Below, piece after piece: positions 2 to 25,610 of a stretch of 32,912 nt of DNA (position 1 is the first letter of the stretch; each line of letters starts with the position of its first letter). Origin of the DNA: an uncultured Clostridia bacterium (GTDB lineage: Bacteria; Bacillota; Clostridia; UMGS1883); assembly GCA_947624455.1 (NCBI GenBank), contig CANQKL010000003.1:1-32912 (forward strand). The letters run 5' to 3'. Below the pieces are notes generated by a model. The model did not search any database. It worked only from the letters and a program-made list of their open reading frames with translations, and had not been told where the DNA came from. The position numbers and the translations under genes were made by a program.

Positions 2-2323
2 ACTCAGCCTCACATTTCCACCGAGCGGGCCTACTGGTTCACTCAGGCTTATAAAAAATACGAGGGCAGCGTTGATATCCCCGTTCTGCGGGCGCTGGCC
101 TTTAAAACCTATATGGAAAACCGCAGCCTTTGCATAAACGACGGCGAGCTTATAGTAGGGGAGAAGGGTACCGGCCCCCAGTGCGCACCTACCTTCCCCG
201 AGCTTTGCTGCCACACCCTCGAGGATCTTCAGGTCATGAACGACCGGGAGCTTATAAACTTTACGGTTGACGAGGAGACTCGGCGCGTACACGCCCAGGA
301 GATAATCCCCTATTGGGAGCATCGGAGCATCCGCGAAAAGATAATGAGGTCTACCGACCAACAGTGGAAGGATTGCTACGCTGCGGGTATGTTCACTGAA
401 TTTATGGAGCAGCGAGGCCCCGGCCATACCGGCGGCGGCAACGGGTTCTACCACAAGGGATTCAGCGACTACAAAAAGGATATCGCCAGAAAAATGGCGG
501 AATTGGACTTTACCAATGACCTCAGAGCCTATGACAAGAAGGCGGAGCTGGAGGCTATGGACATAGCCTGCGACGCCATCATAATCTATGGCCGCCGTTA
601 CAGCGCCTATGCCGCCGAGTTGGCTGCAAAGGAGACAGATCCCCAGAAAAAGGCCGATCTGACCCTCATTAGCGAAAACTGCGCCGTTGTGCCTGAGTTC
701 GCTCCCAGAACTTTCCATCAGGCCTTACAGATGTACTGGTTCGTGCATATCGGCGTTACCAGCGAAGTCAATCCGTGGGACGCTTTCACGCCCGGGCGTC
801 TTGACCAGCATACCTATCCTTTCTATAAAAAGGATGTGGAGGACGGCGTCATGAACTATGACAAGGCCCGTGAACTCATGGAGTGCCTGTGGATAAAGTT
901 CAACAATCAGCCCGCGCCTCCCAAGGTGGGAATAACGCTTAAGGAGAGCGGCACCTATACGGATTTCGCAAACCTTAACACCGGCGGCATCACTCCCGAC
1001 GGCAAGGACGGCGTGAACCCCGTGAGCTATATCATTCTTGACACCATGGATGAAATGAAGCTCCTCCAGCCCTCCAGCAACGTGCAGATATCTAAAAAGA
1101 CCCCCAAGGAATTTCTCCTCCGCGCCTGTGAGATTAGCCGTAAGGGCTGGGGCCAGCCCGCCTTTTATAACACCGAGGCGATTATTCAGGAGCTGCTCAA
1201 TGCCGGAAAGTCCATTGAGGACGCCCGCTGCGGCAGCGCAACCGGCTGTGTTGAGACTGGCTGTCTGGGCAAGGAGAGCTACGTACTCACCGGCTACTTC
1301 AACACTCCAAAGGTGCTGGAGATAACCCTTAACAACGGCTATGACAAATACACCGGCAAGCAGATCGGACTGGCCACTGGCTATGCCGGGGACTATAAGA
1401 GCTATGATGAGCTTTGGGCTGCCTTTGAAAAGCAGATGAACTATTTCATCGACATCAAGATCAGGGGCAACAATATAATTGAAAAGATCTATTCCGAGTA
1501 TATGCCCGTGCCTTTCCTCAGCGTAATTATGGATGACTGCATCGAAAAGGCCACCGACTACAACTGCGGCGGCGCCAGATATAACACCAACTACATTCAA
1601 GGCGTTGGCATAGGCACCATAACCGACAGCCTCAGCGCGATAAAGTACAACGTTTTTGATAATCATAACTTTACCATGGATCAGCTTAAGGCGGCTATTG
1701 ACGCCAACTTTGAAGGCTATGAGGATATTTATAACAAGGTGGCCAATCATTCTCCCAAGTACGGTAATGACGACGATTACGCCGACGCCATCATGCAGGA
1801 CGTGTTTAATGCCTATTACGCCGCCGTCACCGGCCGTCCCACTGTAAAGGGAGGCGTCTACCGTATAGATATGCTGCCCACGACCTGCCACGTATATTTT
1901 GGCGAGGTTTGCGGCGCTCTGCCCAACGGCCGTCTGGCTGGCAAGCCTGTATCTGAGGGCATTTCTCCCGAAAAGGGAGCCGACAGAAAGGGTCCCACAG
2001 CCGTTATCAACTCCTGCGCTAAGATGGATCATCTCAAGACCGGCGGCACCCTTCTCAACCAGAAGTTCACCCCCAAGGTCGTTGAGGGCCAGGAGGGCCT
2101 GGAAAATATGGCGGCTCTGATCCGTTCCTACTTTGCAATGGACGGCCATCACATCCAGTTCAACGTTATCGACCGGGCAACTCTGCTCGACGCTCAGGCT
2201 CATCCCGAGGAGTACAAGGATCTTATCGTTCGGGTCGCGGGCTACAGCGATCATTTCCGTAACCTGAGCAAGGCCCTTCAGGACGAAATAATCAACCGCA
2301 CCGAGCAGAGCTTCAGCTGCTAA
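2..2323 (+). CDS. Glycyl radical enzyme of the PFL2/dehydratase/decarboxylase group (5' truncated by window edge); possibly trans-4-hydroxy-L-proline dehydratase-like
   Basis: Frame is open from nt 2 (TQPHISTERAYWFTQAYKKYEG...), upstream of the ORF-track ATG at 113. Active-site motif GSATGCVETGCLGKESY (CxE type) and C-terminal glycyl-radical motif VRVAGYSDHFRNLSKALQDEIINRTEQ. The HypD sub-assignment is recollection-based and uncertain. Confidence 0.9.
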   Translation, partial: TQPHISTERAYWFTQAYKKYEGSVDIPVLRALAFKTYMENRSLCINDGELIVGEKGTGPQCAPTFPELCCHTLEDLQVMNDRELINFTVDEETRRVHAQEIIPYWEHRSIREKIMRSTDQQWKDCYAAGMFTEFMEQRGPGHTGGGNGFYHKGFSDYKKDIARKMAELDFTNDLRAYDKKAELEAMDIACDAIIIYGRRYSAYAAELAAKETDPQKKADLTLISENCAVVPEFAPRTFHQALQMYWFVHIGVTSEVNPWDAFTPGRLDQHTYPFYKKDVEDGVMNYDKARELMECLWIKFNNQPAPPKVGITLKESGTYTDFANLNTGGITPDGKDGVNPVSYIILDTMDEMKLLQPSSNVQISKKTPKEFLLRACEISRKGWGQPAFYNTEAIIQELLNAGKSIEDARCGSATGCVETGCLGKESYVLTGYFNTPKVLEITLNNGYDKYTGKQIGLATGYAGDYKSYDELWAAFEKQMNYFIDIKIRGNNIIEKIYSEYMPVPFLSVIMDDCIEKATDYNCGGARYNTNYIQGVGIGTITDSLSAIKYNVFDNHNFTMDQLKAAIDANFEGYEDIYNKVANHSPKYGNDDDYADAIMQDVFNAYYAAVTGRPTVKGGVYRIDMLPTTCHVYFGEVCGALPNGRLAGKPVSEGISPEKGADRKGPTAVINSCAKMDHLKTGGTLLNQKFTPKVVEGQEGLENMAALIRSYFAMDGHHIQFNVIDRATLLDAQAHPEEYKDLIVRVAGYSDHFRNLSKALQDEIINRTEQSFSC

Positions 2324-2776: not shown

Positions 2777-2814
2777 CAGTCTGCCAATAAATTCGCTATG
2801 TAACCTGGAGGCAC

Positions 2815-3295
2815 GGGGGCTGTCCAAAAAATCGTGCAGAACGGCATCGAAACAAGCGTTGCATCGCTTGTTCTGATTTCTTCAAAATCAGAACAATGGC
2901 TCGCGCCGCTGTTCCTCCTTTTCCCCACAAACAACTTCGTTGTTTGTGGGGCGTTGGCACATAAAACTCGCAAAAGGTTGTTAGTGAGCCAAAGCCGCAG
3001 CGAGGGCCGTTTTAGGCCCGAAGCAGGCGACGCGAACGTGACCTTTTGCGAAAAGGAGGAGCAAGCCTTCGCGCGACGACATTTTTTCGAAAGAAAAAAG
3101 CGTCGGAGCAAAGACAGGCTTTGCTCCGACGCCGCCGAGCGGTGATTTTCGTTCGTAGTCCAAGGGCATAAAATGAGAAAATTCGCTCGTAAGGGCGAAT
3201 TTTCTACATTAATACGTTATTTAATTGACTGCTTACATAATGCTATAATTTACCTTAAACGCCCTTGGACGATCTGCGCCATTTTTTACAGCCCC
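2815..3295. repeat. Hairpin-rich non-coding element with imperfect inverted ends (GGGGGCTGTCCAAAAAATCGTGCAGA ... TCTGCGCCATTTTTTACAGCCCC)
   Basis: Left end 2815-2840 resembles the reverse complement of 3273-3295. The interior holds many perfect stem-loops: AACAAGCG/CGCTTGTT, GTTCTGATTT/AAATCAGAAC, CCCCACAAACAAC/GTTGTTTGTGGGG, GCGTCGGAGCAAAG/CTTTGCTCCGACGC (3100-3132), AGAAAATTCGC/GCGAATTTTCT. A related module lies near 23970-24102 on the other strand. Confidence 0.7.
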
Positions 3296-4164: not shown

Positions 4165-4291
4165 GGAATAACCGTGGCTTCCACGGTTATTCCAGAGCGC
4201 TGACCTTTATCAACGCTCTTCAAAGGGGAACCCGAACGGTTCCCCTTTGAGAAAACCTCTCCGCATCGGGCGCTTTCGCTTACGAAATATC
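4165..4291. repeat. Left part of a contiguous hairpin array (H1 4165-4193, H2 4194-4219, H3 4220-4250, left part of H4 4265-4291)
   Basis: H1 GGAATAACCGTGG-CTT-CCACGGTTATTCC (13 bp perfect). H2 AGAGCG..TGA/TCA..CGCTCT (imperfect). H3 TCAAAGGGGAACC-CGAAC-GGTTCCCCTTTGA (13 bp perfect). H4 is interrupted by the IS. Confidence 0.75.
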
Positions 4292-4338
4292 GGCTCTATG
4301 TCAAGAATAGTGGTGTAAAATCCTGCAAAGAATTTACG

Positions 4339-4380: not shown

Positions 4381-5595
4381 TTATGCCACGCCTTGTTTGC
4401 TATCTTGCCAATAAAACATAAATAATATTCGATTTCGAAATCTCTTGAAGTTCCTGTAGCCATAAGCATTGCGTTTCAAGACCTTGATTTTGTTGTTGCA
4501 CCCTTCCGTAAAGCCGTTTGTGTACCCATATTTAAAGGAATTCAGTATACCTTTTCCCCAAGCGATAAACGTGTTTCCACAGTTTTCGTACTCAATTAGC
4601 CCACTGTTTTGCGCCTCAAGTATCCAAGCGCCCATGAGTTTGGCTGAACTTTCCGGCTCTTTTGCATCCAGAACTTCATAAAACCGCTCCTTTAGATGAT
4701 ACGCCTGACGAAGCTCGTGGGAGAGATACAGCATTGCCTCCACAAGTTCCCGCTCGTATTTCGTAAGTTTCCTCCCTCGCTTTGTGAGCAGCCTCTTAGA
4801 GTGTTTTAACAGCTTCCTGTACTTTCCCCCCAGCCGCTTTTGCTCCCTCTTCCTAACCGCCTCAAATGCCCATACGCACTGTCGGACAAAGTGATATTTG
4901 TCCACAATCTGTGCGGCGTTTTTGAAATAAGTATCAGCCAAATCGGCATAAGGTCTCCACATATCTGACACAAAAAACTTTACCTTATCCCGTTTTTCCT
5001 TGCCATATCCTCTCAAATACTCGATTAGGTGGCTGTTATTTCTGTCCGGCAGAATATCCAATACCCGTCCATGCGCCGGATCGGTAAGTATGCACTGGTA
5101 CTTATGAGTGCCGGTATTGCCTTTGAATTCATCTATGGCGAAAACCTCCGGAAGTCCGGTGGGATGGGGCATTTCCACCGCGTCGAATATCCTGATAACA
5201 GAGGAAATTGAAATACTATTATCCCTTGCCACGGAGGAGAAGGAACGTTCGTTGCTCAAAGCCTCAATAATCTTAGAGATAAAGCGCAGCGTCATTTGTC
5301 GGCGGCGGGCGACAAAGGTGTTTTTCTCGGGGAAGCACTTGCCGCAGCCGGTGCAGCGATATCTGCGGCGACGATAGGCCAGAGTGAGGCTGCGTCCGGC
5401 GACTGACAGATCCTTTATGTGACGGACGCGGTAGTCGTGGACACGGGAAGTCTTGCAGCCGCAGGCCGGGCAGATGTGTTCTGTTACGGGCATTTCTATA
5501 TGAACCGTCAACCTGTTTTCGGCGGTTTCAATATTTCTTACTATTACCCCTTGAAAATCGAGAATTTGTGTTGTATAATTATTGTTAGAGAGCAT
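4381..5595 (-). CDS. ISL3-family transposase
   Basis: CxxC zinc-binding N-terminus (HICPACGCKTSRVHDYRVRHIKDLSVAGR; YRCTGCGKCFPE), then FAIDEFKGNTGTHKYQCILTDPAHGRVLDILPDRN, FFVSDMWRPYADLADTYFKNAAQIVDKYHFVRQ, YTNGFTEGCNNKIKVLKRNAYGYRNFKRFRNRI. Start likely the Met at 5595; the ORF track extends to 5772, beyond the IS end. Confidence 0.9.
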   Translation of the reverse strand: MLSNNNYTTQILDFQGVIVRNIETAENRLTVHIEMPVTEHICPACGCKTSRVHDYRVRHIKDLSVAGRSLTLAYRRRRYRCTGCGKCFPEKNTFVARRRQMTLRFISKIIEALSNERSFSSVARDNSISISSVIRIFDAVEMPHPTGLPEVFAIDEFKGNTGTHKYQCILTDPAHGRVLDILPDRNNSHLIEYLRGYGKEKRDKVKFFVSDMWRPYADLADTYFKNAAQIVDKYHFVRQCVWAFEAVRKREQKRLGGKYRKLLKHSKRLLTKRGRKLTKYERELVEAMLYLSHELRQAYHLKERFYEVLDAKEPESSAKLMGAWILEAQNSGLIEYENCGNTFIAWGKGILNSFKYGYTNGFTEGCNNKIKVLKRNAYGYRNFKRFRNRILFMFYWQDSKQGVA

Positions 5596-5728
5596 ATTTG
5601 TTTCCTCCTGTCTGGATTTAGGGGTAAATTCATTATACAGGATTTTTTCCAAATATGCTCTCTCTTTTTTGCTTTTTTGAGAGACGGTTTTTGGGACACC
5701 ACTATTTATAGTATAGAACCGAAATATC

Positions 5729-5801
5729 CCGATTAAAGTATGAAATCCCGGGTACACGCCCCGGGATTTCATACTTTATATCGAAAGGGAACTCCCTTTC
5801 G
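5729..5801. repeat. Right part of the hairpin array (rest of H4, H5 5735-5777, H6 5782-5801)
   Basis: H5 AAAGTATGAAATCCCGGG-TACACGC-CCCGGGATTTCATACTTT (18 bp perfect). H6 CGAAAGGGA-AC-TCCCTTTCG (9 bp perfect). Confidence 0.8.
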
Positions 5802-20604: not shown

Positions 20605-23600
20605 ATGAAAAAGTTAAACCTTCGTGCGTTGGCCGCCGGGCTTGCCACTTCGGTGGCTATGACATGCCTGAGCGGCGTTCCCGCGTTTGCGGCGGCGCAG
20701 AAAGTTGGCGATGCGGCGCAGGCCGTTATGCCCACCCGTGCCCAGGCTGTCGAGGCGCTGGAGCGGGCCAATGATAAGTGGATAACCAGCAATGGTCACG
20801 GCCGTTCTTTCTGGGATAACGCGGCTTACCATGTTGGTAATATGGAAGCTTATTTTACCACAGGTATCGAGCTTTACCGTAACTATTCCGAGGCTTGGGC
20901 GATCCAGAATAACTGGAAGGGCGCTACAAGCAATAACAAGAACGCCTGGAAGGGCAACGCCTCCAACGGCGGCTATGGCGAGGGACAGGACTGGGTTCTG
21001 TTCGGCGACTGGCAGATCTGCTTCCAGACCTATATCGACCTTTACAATGACGAAGTGATGGCTTCTAAGAACACCATCAAGGACGAGGGTAAGGTCGCCC
21101 GCGCTATTGAGGTCATGAGCTATCAGGCTTCTCGTTCCGAGACTGACTGGTGGTGGTGGGCCGACTCCCTGTTCATGGCAATGCCCATCATGAGCAAGCT
21201 CTATGTTCTCACCGGCGACTATAAGTACCTTGACAAGCAGTACGAATGGTTCAAGTGGGCTGCCGAGGACGTTGAAGGCGGCACCAAGGACGGTATGTGG
21301 GATGCGGAGGAACAGTTGTTCCACCGTGACGGCAAGTACATATATCCCGACCACAAGACGGACAGCGGCAAGAAGGATTTCTGGGCACGCGGTTCCGGCT
21401 GGGTATTCGCAGGTCTTGCCCGCGTTCTCTCTGATATGCCTACCGACTATCAGCACAGAGATTACTTCCTTGATAAGTATACTCAGATGGCTCAGGGCGT
21501 GGCCCGTAACCAGCAGAAGGAGGGCTTCTGGTCCCGTTCTATAATCGACCGCGCTTATGCCGACGGTTTTGAGTCCAGCGGTACGTCCTTCTTCACCTAT
21601 GGCCTTGCTTGGGGCATCAACAGCGGCTATCTTGACCGCAATACCTATCTCGACACCGCTCTCAAGGGCTGGTACTTCCTGTACAACACCGCCCTTCAGG
21701 CCGACGGCACCGTAGGCTATGTTCAGCCCATCGGCGAGAACCCCCGTCAGTCCCTTAATATCGGCGGCGGCAACACCGCTAACTTCGGCGTGGGCGCTTT
21801 CCTGCTTGCGGCCTGCGAAATTTCCAAGCTGGCTGGCGGCGTTTACGGCGACCAGACCAATAACAACGACATTTATCCCTACATAATGAGAAAACTCGTT
21901 GGCAAGTATGTTATCGAGGTAAATACCGCTCACTTCTATCACGATGGCGTCATCAATCACCACGATGAAAGCAACCACAATATGCAGACATACGTTAAGG
22001 ATGGCACTACCATGCTTCCCGTTATCGCCATCAAGAACTATATGACTGACTGCGACGTTACCGAGGATGGCGACACCGTTTACGTAACCCGCGACATCAA
22101 GAACGGCAGCAACACCACCAGAAAGACGGTTGTCTTTAATATGGGAAGCGCCAACTACACTGTTGACGGAGCAGCCGGAGTTCTGCCCACCGCCGCCGAG
22201 CGTAAAGACGGCTATGCCTGCGTTCCTGTTCGTCAGGTAATGGAGGGTCTTGGCTACAAGATCTGGTACAGCGCTTACAGCGGTACCAGCAATTATGTCG
22301 CCAACAACCCCATGGACGCTCTTATAGTAATTTCCGAGAAGGCCGATCCCTTCTTTGACTGTGATTCCAACGCTGTTGAGATGCTGCGCTGGATGCTTGA
22401 GGTAAATCACCACTATCCCGAACGTGTTCAGAGTCCTAAGCCCTATACGGTTGAGAAGCCTATGCAGGCCGCTACCGAGGCTTACGGCACTCAGATACCC
22501 CTGACTACTTCCATGCTTTCCGCCAGCGCTACTCCCGAGGCGGCTAACCATGTTGGTCAGACCATCGACAACAATGTTGAGACTCGCTGGGCCGCTCAGG
22601 GCAAGCAGTACATGACTATAGACCTTGGCGTTCCCATGCAGATCTCCTGCGTAGGCGTGCGCATGATGCGCTACACCGACAGCCGCGTTATCAACTACGG
22701 CGTGTCCATTTCCTCTGACAACACCAACTGGACCAGCGTGTTCAACGGCACCAGCGTTCCTAACGGCGCCACCTGGGAGTTCCCCAAGGTTGACGGCAAG
22801 GTTGCCCGTTATGTCCGCATCAACGTAAACGGTTCCTCCACTAATGATTGGGCCAGCGTGGCCGATGTGGCCGTATTCCAGGGCGACGCCAACTCCCCCA
22901 AGGCTTCCGGCGTTTCCGGCAGCTCCGCTGGCGGAGTTGTCACCCAGGGCGTAACCAATAGCGCTTCCGGCACCAAGGTAACTCTTAACTCCGGTATGCT
23001 CAGGGCCAGCGCCGAGCCTCAGAGTGAGAATCCCGCTTCCGCCATTGTTGACGGCAATCCCAATACTTACTGGGCCGTTGAGGGCAGCGCTAACATCGTT
23101 ATCGACCTTGGCAGCGCTCAGACGATTGGCACGGTAGGCGTACAGATGAGAAACTACAGCAGCGAGGCTCCCAACAGAACTCTGCCTTACACAGTTTCCG
23201 TATCTGCCGACGGCTCCAGCTATACCTCTGTCGCTTCCAAGACCAGCCCCGCTGGCGGCGGAGTGATGGAATCCATTACGGTTGGTCAGAACGCAAGATA
23301 TGTAAAGATCGATGTAAACGGCTCTAATGAGGGCCAGTGGGCTAGTGTGGCCGAGGTCGAGGTATACGGTGGCACAGTTTCCGGCGGCAGCGCCGGCGGA
23401 GCCTTTGTGTCCGGTCTTTCCTCCACATCCACTAAGCCTGTTGGCAATCGGATAAATTCCAAGTCCGCTGCGGCTCTCATCATCGCCGACACTAAGTTCC
23501 CCGCCTCCGCCGCTATTGACGGCGATAAAAATACTGCCTGGAAGGGTCTTGCTAACCAGAGCATCGTTGTAGAGGCCGCCGCTGAAAAGACCATTACAAG

Positions 23601-23805
23601 TATTGGTATTCGCGGTCAGGAGAACGATATCACCTATTCTGTATCCGTATCTTCCGATGGCAGCGCCTGGACTGCTGTTTACAGCGGCAGCGCGGCCGCC
23701 GGAGCTACAACTTATCATCCCTGCCAGGTAAAGGGCAAGTATGTCATGGTTACCCTTCTTACCGAGGGCAAGGTAGCCGAGGTAGAAATTTACGGCGCTG
23801 AATAA
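20605..23805 (+). CDS. Secreted modular GH105-like (unsaturated rhamnogalacturonyl hydrolase-type) enzyme with CuAO-N-like and three F5/8C (CBM32)-like domains
   Basis: Signal peptide; WWWWADSLFMAMPIMSKLYVLTGDYKYLD, DFWARGSGWVFAGLARVLSDMP; VVFNMGSANYTVDGAAGVLPTAAERKDGYACVPVRQVMEGLGYKIWY (CuAO-N-like); repeated NNVETRWAAQG...DLGVPMQISCVGVRM, GNPNTYWAVEG...DLGSAQTIGTVGVQM, GDKNTAWKGLAN...TITSIGIRG. Confidence 0.85.
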   Translation: MKKLNLRALAAGLATSVAMTCLSGVPAFAAAQKVGDAAQAVMPTRAQAVEALERANDKWITSNGHGRSFWDNAAYHVGNMEAYFTTGIELYRNYSEAWAIQNNWKGATSNNKNAWKGNASNGGYGEGQDWVLFGDWQICFQTYIDLYNDEVMASKNTIKDEGKVARAIEVMSYQASRSETDWWWWADSLFMAMPIMSKLYVLTGDYKYLDKQYEWFKWAAEDVEGGTKDGMWDAEEQLFHRDGKYIYPDHKTDSGKKDFWARGSGWVFAGLARVLSDMPTDYQHRDYFLDKYTQMAQGVARNQQKEGFWSRSIIDRAYADGFESSGTSFFTYGLAWGINSGYLDRNTYLDTALKGWYFLYNTALQADGTVGYVQPIGENPRQSLNIGGGNTANFGVGAFLLAACEISKLAGGVYGDQTNNNDIYPYIMRKLVGKYVIEVNTAHFYHDGVINHHDESNHNMQTYVKDGTTMLPVIAIKNYMTDCDVTEDGDTVYVTRDIKNGSNTTRKTVVFNMGSANYTVDGAAGVLPTAAERKDGYACVPVRQVMEGLGYKIWYSAYSGTSNYVANNPMDALIVISEKADPFFDCDSNAVEMLRWMLEVNHHYPERVQSPKPYTVEKPMQAATEAYGTQIPLTTSMLSASATPEAANHVGQTIDNNVETRWAAQGKQYMTIDLGVPMQISCVGVRMMRYTDSRVINYGVSISSDNTNWTSVFNGTSVPNGATWEFPKVDGKVARYVRINVNGSSTNDWASVADVAVFQGDANSPKASGVSGSSAGGVVTQGVTNSASGTKVTLNSGMLRASAEPQSENPASAIVDGNPNTYWAVEGSANIVIDLGSAQTIGTVGVQMRNYSSEAPNRTLPYTVSVSADGSSYTSVASKTSPAGGGVMESITVGQNARYVKIDVNGSNEGQWASVAEVEVYGGTVSGGSAGGAFVSGLSSTSTKPVGNRINSKSAAALIIADTKFPASAAIDGDKNTAWKGLANQSIVVEAAAEKTITSIGIRGQENDITYSVSVSSDGSAWTAVYSGSAAAGATTYHPCQVKGKYVMVTLLTEGKVAEVEIYGAE

Positions 23806-23862: not shown

Positions 23863-23969
23863 CTGCCGATAAAGCTGTCGAATTGCTAAACTCAAAAATT
23901 TGATTTTATCGACGGGTTTAACAACACATAAATTTGGCTTAAATAAAGGATTTCAGTAAAAACGGGGTC

Positions 23970-24102
23970 CCCGCAAAACGGCGAAGCCGATTTTGTGGGG
24001 AAAAGGAGTCGCAGCGAGGTGAGCTGTGTTTCGATTTTTCAAATCGAAACAAGCGATGCCGAGCTTGCGACGACGCAGATCTGCGCCATTTTTTTACAGC
24101 CC
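23970..24102 (-). repeat. Second copy of the hairpin-rich non-coding module, minus-strand orientation
   Basis: Reverse complement GGGCTGTAAAAAAATGGCGCAGAT...GGCATCGCTTGTTTCGATTTGAAAAATCGAAACA..GCTCACCTCGCTGCGACTCCTTTTCCCCACAAAATCGGCTTCGCCGTTTTGCGGGG aligns with plus-strand 2816-2960. Confidence 0.75.
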
Positions 24103-24131
24103 TGTTCACAATTATTTCAGAATTATACCGA

Positions 24132-24160
24132 TTGACATTTGCGAAAATATGTGTTATTAT
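24132..24160 (+). promoter_or_regulatory. Putative sigma-A promoter (TTGACA-17-TATTAT) for the SLH-domain gene
   Basis: TTGACA 24132-24137, TATTAT 24155-24160; ATG at 24201. Confidence 0.65.
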
Positions 24161-24200: not shown

Positions 24201-25610
24201 ATGAAAAAGAAGATACTGGCCCTTGTATTGGCCCTTACTTTGGCCCTGTGTGCCATACCCTCGGCCTACGCCTACTCTGTCCGGGAGGCGTATATGGATT
24301 TTGCCGCTCAGTACCCCGGCTTTATCAACGATGTTGTGGATCAGGGCGTGAGCGAGAGCGTAATACTTGAATTCCTGCGCGATGTACAGAATTACCTTTA
24401 TCAGGTGAATCGCATCGAAAAAATCAACGACGGCAATTTCGACGACATACTTATCGAGGCCATCAAAACGGTCAGCAATTCTAGCAAGTTTGCCGACCTC
24501 CAAAATGCCTTGTACAACGCCTATCCCGACGCGGCCTATGAGGCGGTGATCCACGGTAGGATACACGAGGATTTCATACCCATATATAACTCGATCAAAT
24601 CAATGATCTTTGAACACGATATGCTGGCCGAAATGGATACCGGAAAAGACGACCCCGTTGATGTTGCCATAACTGAAATAGGCGAGCCGAAGGATGTTGA
24701 AGTCGAGCGGGGCGGCAGCTACACCCTTGACGGTTCTGTCAGCGCTGAAACCGAAACCGGCGTTTCCATAAAACTGGAAGTGGAGTGGACAAATGAGCCT
24801 TCTACATCCAAGGTGGGCGTATTTACCGCGGAAGGTCAGGTCAAAATACCCTCTGGCTACGTGCTGGCGGACGGCCTCGACGCCAATGTGTCCGCTATGG
24901 TTACGGTCGTTGAGTCTGAAAACAACGACAATGACGACAAAAAGCCCAATACCGGCAATGAAAATACCGGAACCAGCGGCAACGACGTACAGACGCCAGG
25001 CGAAAACGAAACCGTAAAGCACATTTACAGCTTCTCTGACGTGGACGAAAAGACGGAGCTTGGCAAGGCTGTTTACGCTCTTTCCGACATCGGCATCATT
25101 AACGGTTATGTGGACGGCACCTTTAAGGCTGAAAACAAGATCCGCCGCGACGAGTTCGCGAAGATCATGGTCACCGCTATGGATAATCTGGACATAAACG
25201 CCGTGGCAAGCTTTACCGACGTTCCCAACACTCCCGACAACTGGGCGTATATCTTCATCGCCTCCGCCGAAAAGGCCGGCCTTATTAACGGCAAGGGCGA
25301 CGGAACCTTTGGCCCTGGGCTGAATATCCGCCGGGACGAGGTGATGGCGATAATCTACCGTGCCATTGAGGGCAAGAAAGCCTTTGCCCAGAATGAGGTT
25401 CTCGTTCCCAAATTCAGCGATGACGCCGCCGTTGCCGATTGGGCGCGGATGCCTGTATATATGCTGGCCCAGAACGGCATTGTTTCAGGTGTGAAAACTG
25501 TGGTGAACGGAGCCGAGATCAATAATATAGATCCTCTCAGCGACGCCACCCGTGGTCAGTGTGTCATAATGGTTTACAATGCCTTGAAGATGATGGGTAA
25601 GATAAAGTGA
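24201..25610 (+). CDS. S-layer homology (SLH) domain surface protein
   Basis: Signal peptide MKKKILALVLALTLALCAIPSAYA; three SLH repeats: YSFSDVDEKTELGKAVYALSDIGIINGYVDGTFKAENKIRRDEFAKIM, SFTDVPNTPDNWAYIFIASAEKAGLINGKGDGTFGPGLNIRRDEVMAII, KFSDDAAVADWARMPVYMLAQNGIVSG...DATRGQCVIMVYNAL; Ig-like middle region. Confidence 0.92.
   Translation: MKKKILALVLALTLALCAIPSAYAYSVREAYMDFAAQYPGFINDVVDQGVSESVILEFLRDVQNYLYQVNRIEKINDGNFDDILIEAIKTVSNSSKFADLQNALYNAYPDAAYEAVIHGRIHEDFIPIYNSIKSMIFEHDMLAEMDTGKDDPVDVAITEIGEPKDVEVERGGSYTLDGSVSAETETGVSIKLEVEWTNEPSTSKVGVFTAEGQVKIPSGYVLADGLDANVSAMVTVVESENNDNDDKKPNTGNENTGTSGNDVQTPGENETVKHIYSFSDVDEKTELGKAVYALSDIGIINGYVDGTFKAENKIRRDEFAKIMVTAMDNLDINAVASFTDVPNTPDNWAYIFIASAEKAGLINGKGDGTFGPGLNIRRDEVMAIIYRAIEGKKAFAQNEVLVPKFSDDAAVADWARMPVYMLAQNGIVSGVKTVVNGAEINNIDPLSDATRGQCVIMVYNALKMMGKIK

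Follow-up and report, generated by a model that had tools for sequence, protein, structure and literature searches.

The window analysed here, a stretch of 32,912 nucleotides, comes from a metagenome-assembled genome (MAG) of an uncultured Clostridia bacterium (1.83 Mb in 251 contigs) and contains two copies of a dispersed repeat, whose parts are listed with the surrounding genes in Table 1. The first copy sits between a gene that ends near position 2727 and sigG, and the second between a GH88 hydrolase gene and the SLH-domain gene that comes after it. At both places the flanking genes are co-directional rather than convergent, which makes the two window copies exceptions to the placement of the family described below. 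The ISL3-family transposase gene of the window is adjoined by imperfect inverted arms (4284-4316 and 5696-5728) whose ends are unlike those of the repeat.

Table 1. Genes, repeat copies and structural parts of the repeat in the window (positions count from its first letter).
Feature	Position	Strand	Remarks
trans-4-Hydroxy-L-proline dehydratase, glycyl radical enzyme	113-2323		NF043068
First element	2786-3295	+	mosaic; both terminal repeats present; left end also matched by model R1
Inner left terminal repeat	2816-2840	+	
P0 basal helix	2834-3279	+	GTGCAGA 2834-2840 with TCTGCGC 3273-3279
Hairpin alpha, type B	2868-2896	+	
Hairpin beta	2923-2951	+	
Orphan 3' half of class-wide P1 domain	3138-3157	+	TGATTTTCGTTCGTAG
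P2 helix	3158-3270	+	GTCCAAGGGC 3158-3167 with GCCCTTGGAC 3261-3270
Central hairpin	3176-3205		AGAAAATTCGC...GCGAATTTTCT; terminator-like on minus strand
Right terminal repeat	3271-3295	+	earlier taken for a third end motif
ISL3-family transposase gene	4381-5772	-	PF01610
GH88 hydrolase with three F5/8 type C domains	20605-23805		
Truncated right half of element	23884-24103	-	from best-matching family in own genome and reading of flanks; one-ended; left limit approximate
Hairpin beta	23969-24000	-	
Outer helix of alpha module	24008-24071	-	GTCGCAGC 24008-24015 with GCTTGCGAC 24063-24071, one bulged base
Hairpin alpha	24028-24050	-	
Right terminal inverted repeat	24079-24103	-	GATCTGCGCCATTTTTTTACAGCCCT read on plus strand
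Promoter-like site of SLH-domain gene	24132-24160	+	TTGACA-17-TATTAT, 11/12; just outside element
SLH-domain protein	24201-25610		

The second copy had been described in the first-pass annotation as an inverted occurrence of a module of two hairpins, alpha and beta, and this occurrence is indeed present, positions 23964-24104 on the minus strand aligning to 2816-2952 on the plus strand. Both modules fold about 6 standard deviations better than dinucleotide shuffles (z of -6.1 and -5.9), and further copies abound, with 58 module matches in the same genome, for which chance is ruled out. The proposal that the stems change in a compensatory manner under selection for structure is borne out by 60 module copies, among which 34 distinct arm pairs of alpha and 19 of beta are almost all paired, and in which arms pair better with their own partners than with swapped ones (23.5 vs 19.1 for alpha). 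The modules also contain a third, outer helix that had been missed (GTCGCA.GC/GCTGCGAC, GTCACA.GC/GCTGTGAC and GGAACA.GC/GCTGTTCC). Since the stems vary in length and register, RNAalifold returned no useful consensus from a plain MAFFT alignment of 59 modules, and the analysis relied instead on pairing arms copy by copy and on anchored alignments; because these register shifts broke the unconstrained fold, the evidence for alpha and beta is weaker than that for the helices P1 and P2 and the central hairpin introduced below. No left end of the second copy was found before the terminator-like hairpin of the GH88 gene. Both modules are decayed, mosaic copies, and the one at 23970-24102 is a genuine, truncated member of a class-wide structured repeat that is absent from Rfam.

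The unit of this family is not the alpha-beta module, as had been supposed, but an element bounded by terminal inverted repeats with a core conserved across the class. The end motif is the terminal inverted repeat GGGGCYGTNNAAAAAATNGNGCAGA, which complete elements carry at either end, the two copies inverted relative to each other, and which in this genus is doubled at the left end (GGGGCTGTAAAAAAACTCACTATGTAATCTGGAGGCAC then GGGGCYGKYCNAAAAAATCGTGCAGAA). What had been read as a third copy of the end motif at 3271-3295 thus marks the right-hand end of the element beginning near 2786. The 90 distinct elements with two ends that we collected measure 89-857 bp, with the majority at 297-335 bp and the minimal ones at 89-107 bp; complete copies usually have 300-330 bp. 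Nearly all copies of modal length have a central hairpin, about 180 bases in from the left end and 107 in from the right. The whole modal element folds (z of -9.2) so that its ends pair (P0), with a three-way junction (P1) and, around the central hairpin, a long-range helix (P2, mostly spanning 81-133 bases). P1 has a conserved CCCGA...CGAGNGG around a GUACN4GUAC hairpin, and its conserved unpaired positions read CCCGA, CGAGNGG and GUAG. The alpha-beta modules are accessory hairpins of this larger element rather than a stand-alone RNA: they replace or flank the conserved core, and in this genus they are optional, occur near either end and may be inverted. The family is a dispersed, non-coding, strongly structured repeat of about 200-320 bases with many copies per genome. 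At four further loci (L010, L013, L014 and L016), alpha-beta modules without terminal repeats lie inside a different composite repeat that has a long AAGGGGAACCGCAGTTCCCCTT palindrome.

Neither window copy has an intact conserved core of P0, P1, P2 and central hairpin, the core being absent or disrupted, and R2, the structure model built on P1 of this class-wide core, matches the window at chance level only (E of 0.78). In the first element the outermost left repeat is decayed, the 5' half of P1 has been replaced by the alpha-beta module and those that follow it, and P2 is a double change relative to the GTTCAAGGGC/GCCCTTGAAC of most genus copies. Positions 2960-3133 hold another module, CGAGGGCCG...GACCTTTTGCGAAAAGGAGGAGCAAGCC and then a 15-pair hairpin (3099-3133), which is common to several long elements (L005, L025, L039 and L042) and whose AAAAGGAGGAGC stretch resembles the alpha-beta linker on the opposite strand.

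Covariation is strong in P1, P2 and the central hairpin. Across 45 distinct sequences of the central hairpin, 98.5% of cells are paired and double changes occur in 9 of the 12 pairs, giving a covariation score of 0.434 compared to 0.191 when shuffled and at most 0.098 with slid partners. For P1, 26 sequences from several families are 93.1% paired, with 50 double-change cells against 12.3 in shuffled alignments and a score of 0.297 against at most 0.079 when slid; central hairpin and P1 therefore both exceed their shuffled and slid controls, as a structured RNA family should. P2 occurs outside the genus with at least 8 different arm sequences, nearly all of which pair, and its own arms score 15.8 compared to 7.9 for swapped arms. 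Functionless palindromes of the REP/BIME type, whose stems are equalised by template switching between arms during replication or repair, would fit the wholesale replacement of alpha stems and the mosaic copies. Such an origin is nonetheless highly improbable given the conserved unpaired positions, a long-range P2 whose arms lie about 80-130 bases apart, the retention of wobble pairs on one strand and the conserved place beside stop codons.

The genome of the window and all seven other genomes of the genus carry many copies, with no fewer than 26-28 left ends per genome as detected with model R1; by sequence searches the module was found in 7 of 8 and the end motif in 8 of 8. An exact pattern recovered 37 stretches, all from MAGs of uncultured Clostridia in a series called 'Lapin', a sample name that suggests rabbit gut. 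BLAST-like and pattern searches gave no convincing match outside the genus, and a sequence model of the left end gave hints of distant relatives, in one of which the repeats are spaced by about 240 bp. A genus-only distribution was overturned by R2, which at E<=1e-5 detects the family in 57 of the 392 class genomes searched and in 33 of 223 genera, usually in several copies each. In a phylum-wide sample of 399 genomes searched at E<=1e-6, the sole match was the window's own genome, a result that doubles as a control for the model. The family spans part of the class Clostridia, of gut type. In one genome from another family of the order (G023; locus L237 on G023:C23 and other places), elements about 240 bp apart stand in head-to-tail rows. 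No Rfam family accounts for the repeat: the window and 8 related loci gave 0 matches at the Rfam 15 gathering threshold and chance matches only at E<=1, phages and plasmids gave no match, and a literature search by consensus strings returned only unrelated papers and no description of the repeat.

If the fold acts as RNA, the transcribed strand should tolerate G-U pairs but not A-C pairs. G-U pairs outnumber A-C pairs on the plus strand in P0 (108 vs 10), P1 (35 vs 13) and, under symmetric scoring, the central hairpin (64 vs 6), counts that include inherited, non-independent cases. Outside the genus, 34 of 36 copies fold better on the plus strand, with a mean gain in stability of 8.8 kcal/mol, which points to RNA, and within the genus 46 of 63 do. 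The copies being related, neither the wobble nor the stability counts are independent, but several families agree in direction. Action as RNA on the plus strand is supported by this strand bias. The bias, the class-wide covariation and the conserved unpaired CCCGA/CGAGNGG/GUAG would also suit a free-standing regulatory or trans-acting RNA, multicopy and with its own promoter, as would the 16 of 42 copies outside the genus into which no upstream gene reads. We consider this improbable, however, since genus copies show no excess of promoters inside elements, 55 of 69 of them have an upstream gene directed into the element, and genomes hold more than 25 copies along with decayed ones such as those in the window. 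Similarly improbable in our estimate is a class-wide mobile RNA element in which the folded plus-strand P0-P1-P2 RNA would itself be what acts or is mobilised, with a dedicated protein binding it, for example, or an RNA intermediate mediating its spread; its placement at gene ends would then reflect the need for a transcript end.

Placement is the other distinctive property of the family. In the genus, by simple ORF calls, 38 of 55 gaps with an element lie between convergent genes compared to 41 of 268 gaps without one (odds ratio 12, p=5.6e-15), and outside the genus the corresponding numbers are 21 of 42 and 5 of 56 (p=6.5e-6), with the right end of the element facing the 3' end of a gene in 37 of 42 copies. 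Copies between convergent genes lie only a few bases from both stop codons: convergent gaps with an element contain a median of 37 bp outside it, whereas gaps without an element have a median of 147 bp in all. Because so little other DNA is left between the stop codons, any intrinsic terminator of the one gene or the other would need to be part of the element. Of the 90 elements, 79 have terminator-like hairpins, GC-rich and followed by a T-run, on both strands, and the share with at least one per strand is 0.89 and 0.96 compared to 0.30 and 0.40 for shuffled sequences. From this place and these hairpins, we infer as the best-supported reading a non-autonomous, dispersed, RNA-coding repeat that acts as a bidirectional terminator and 3' UTR module, and to this we give a probability of roughly 0.55; the element probably stops transcription from both sides between gene ends. 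Against this reading, both window copies lie between co-directional genes, plus-strand U-runs are short in many copies, the three-way junction exceeds what a terminator needs structurally, and insertion between convergent genes may simply be least harmful. Bidirectional intrinsic terminators of Bacillus cereus evolve by compensatory change, with covarying stems and GU intermediates between convergent genes (PMC5381666). The repeat shares these stems, intermediates and gene arrangement, but the Bacillus terminators are single-locus hairpins and it is a dispersed family of about 300 bases with homologous ends. DNA-uptake-sequence terminators (mentioned in PMC2267715) likewise are repeated sequences that double as terminator hairpins, although they are much shorter and are tied to competence.

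Comparison of related genomes indicates dispersal through empty sites. The gap between sigG and its upstream gene contains the element in the window's genome and is empty in two relatives, one of which (G002) carries a different element close to the opposite end of sigG; the gap before a gene that we take, from the start of its protein, to be hisA-like contains an element in one species and none in another. The junctions of these empty sites are placed approximately, not to the base. Around 37 copies no target-site duplication was evident (adjacent direct repeats of 1.05 vs 1.01 shuffled), and no ORF-bearing version of the element was found in the fetched loci. Two transposase families were searched for genome-wide: IS1182, a candidate source of the GGGGCTGT ends, is absent, and IS200-type Y1 genes occur in the genus, none of the seven inspected loci carrying the ends of the repeat, by which Y1 was rejected as a partner for those loci. 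One intact Y1 transposase gene of the window's own genome (L216, G000:C112) is likewise not bounded by them. With neither a target duplication nor an autonomous partner found in these searches, mobility rests on empty sites and copy number.

A miniature inverted-repeat transposable element (MITE) whose folds serve mobility only, with terminal repeats and subterminal hairpins on which a transposase provided in trans would act and with gene ends as its least harmful sites, is a rather unlikely reading. The repeat is MITE-like in being short, non-coding and present in many copies with terminal inverted repeats and empty sites in relatives, and its 89-107 bp minimal copies, inverted modules near both ends and genus-level bursts agree with this; the missing target duplication, the lack of a partner in the two transposase families searched for, the lack of an ORF-bearing version in the fetched loci, with P2 spanning mostly 81-133 bases, and wobble pairs that fit RNA better than double-stranded ends do not. 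The ERIC and NEMIS/Correia elements, structured MITEs of enterobacteria and Neisseria, are short and non-coding, lie between genes, are bounded by terminal inverted repeats and fold once they are part of 3' or intergenic mRNA. They are cited as families (PMC2267715) and resemble the repeat in these respects, but the repeat differs in a three-way junction and a long-range helix that are shared by several families of a class, in lacking a detected target duplication and in its strong convergent-gene placement. REP/BIME elements share with it the form of intergenic palindromes at gene ends. REPs are hairpins of about 20-40 nt with a RAYT transposase. They have been treated as IS targets, with mention of convergent genes (PMC1525189), and the repeat departs from a 20-40 nt palindrome with RAYT-type Y1 both in size, mostly 297-335 bp, and in the inspected Y1 loci, which lack its ends.

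Under the terminator and 3' UTR reading, the element would work as plus-strand RNA at the 3' ends of genes, and between convergent genes it would serve both as a bidirectional intrinsic terminator and as a 3' UTR structure; it would have spread as a non-autonomous mobile repeat, with the genes' own terminators lost afterwards. Strand-biased wobble pairs offer a direct way to separate RNA-level from DNA-level selection on such repeats. A strongly covarying structure of about 300 bases, with tens of copies per genus genome and present in 57 of 392 sampled Clostridia genomes, is without an Rfam entry, and if it terminates transcription at convergent pairs, a single repeat family would supply the 3' ends of many unrelated genes.
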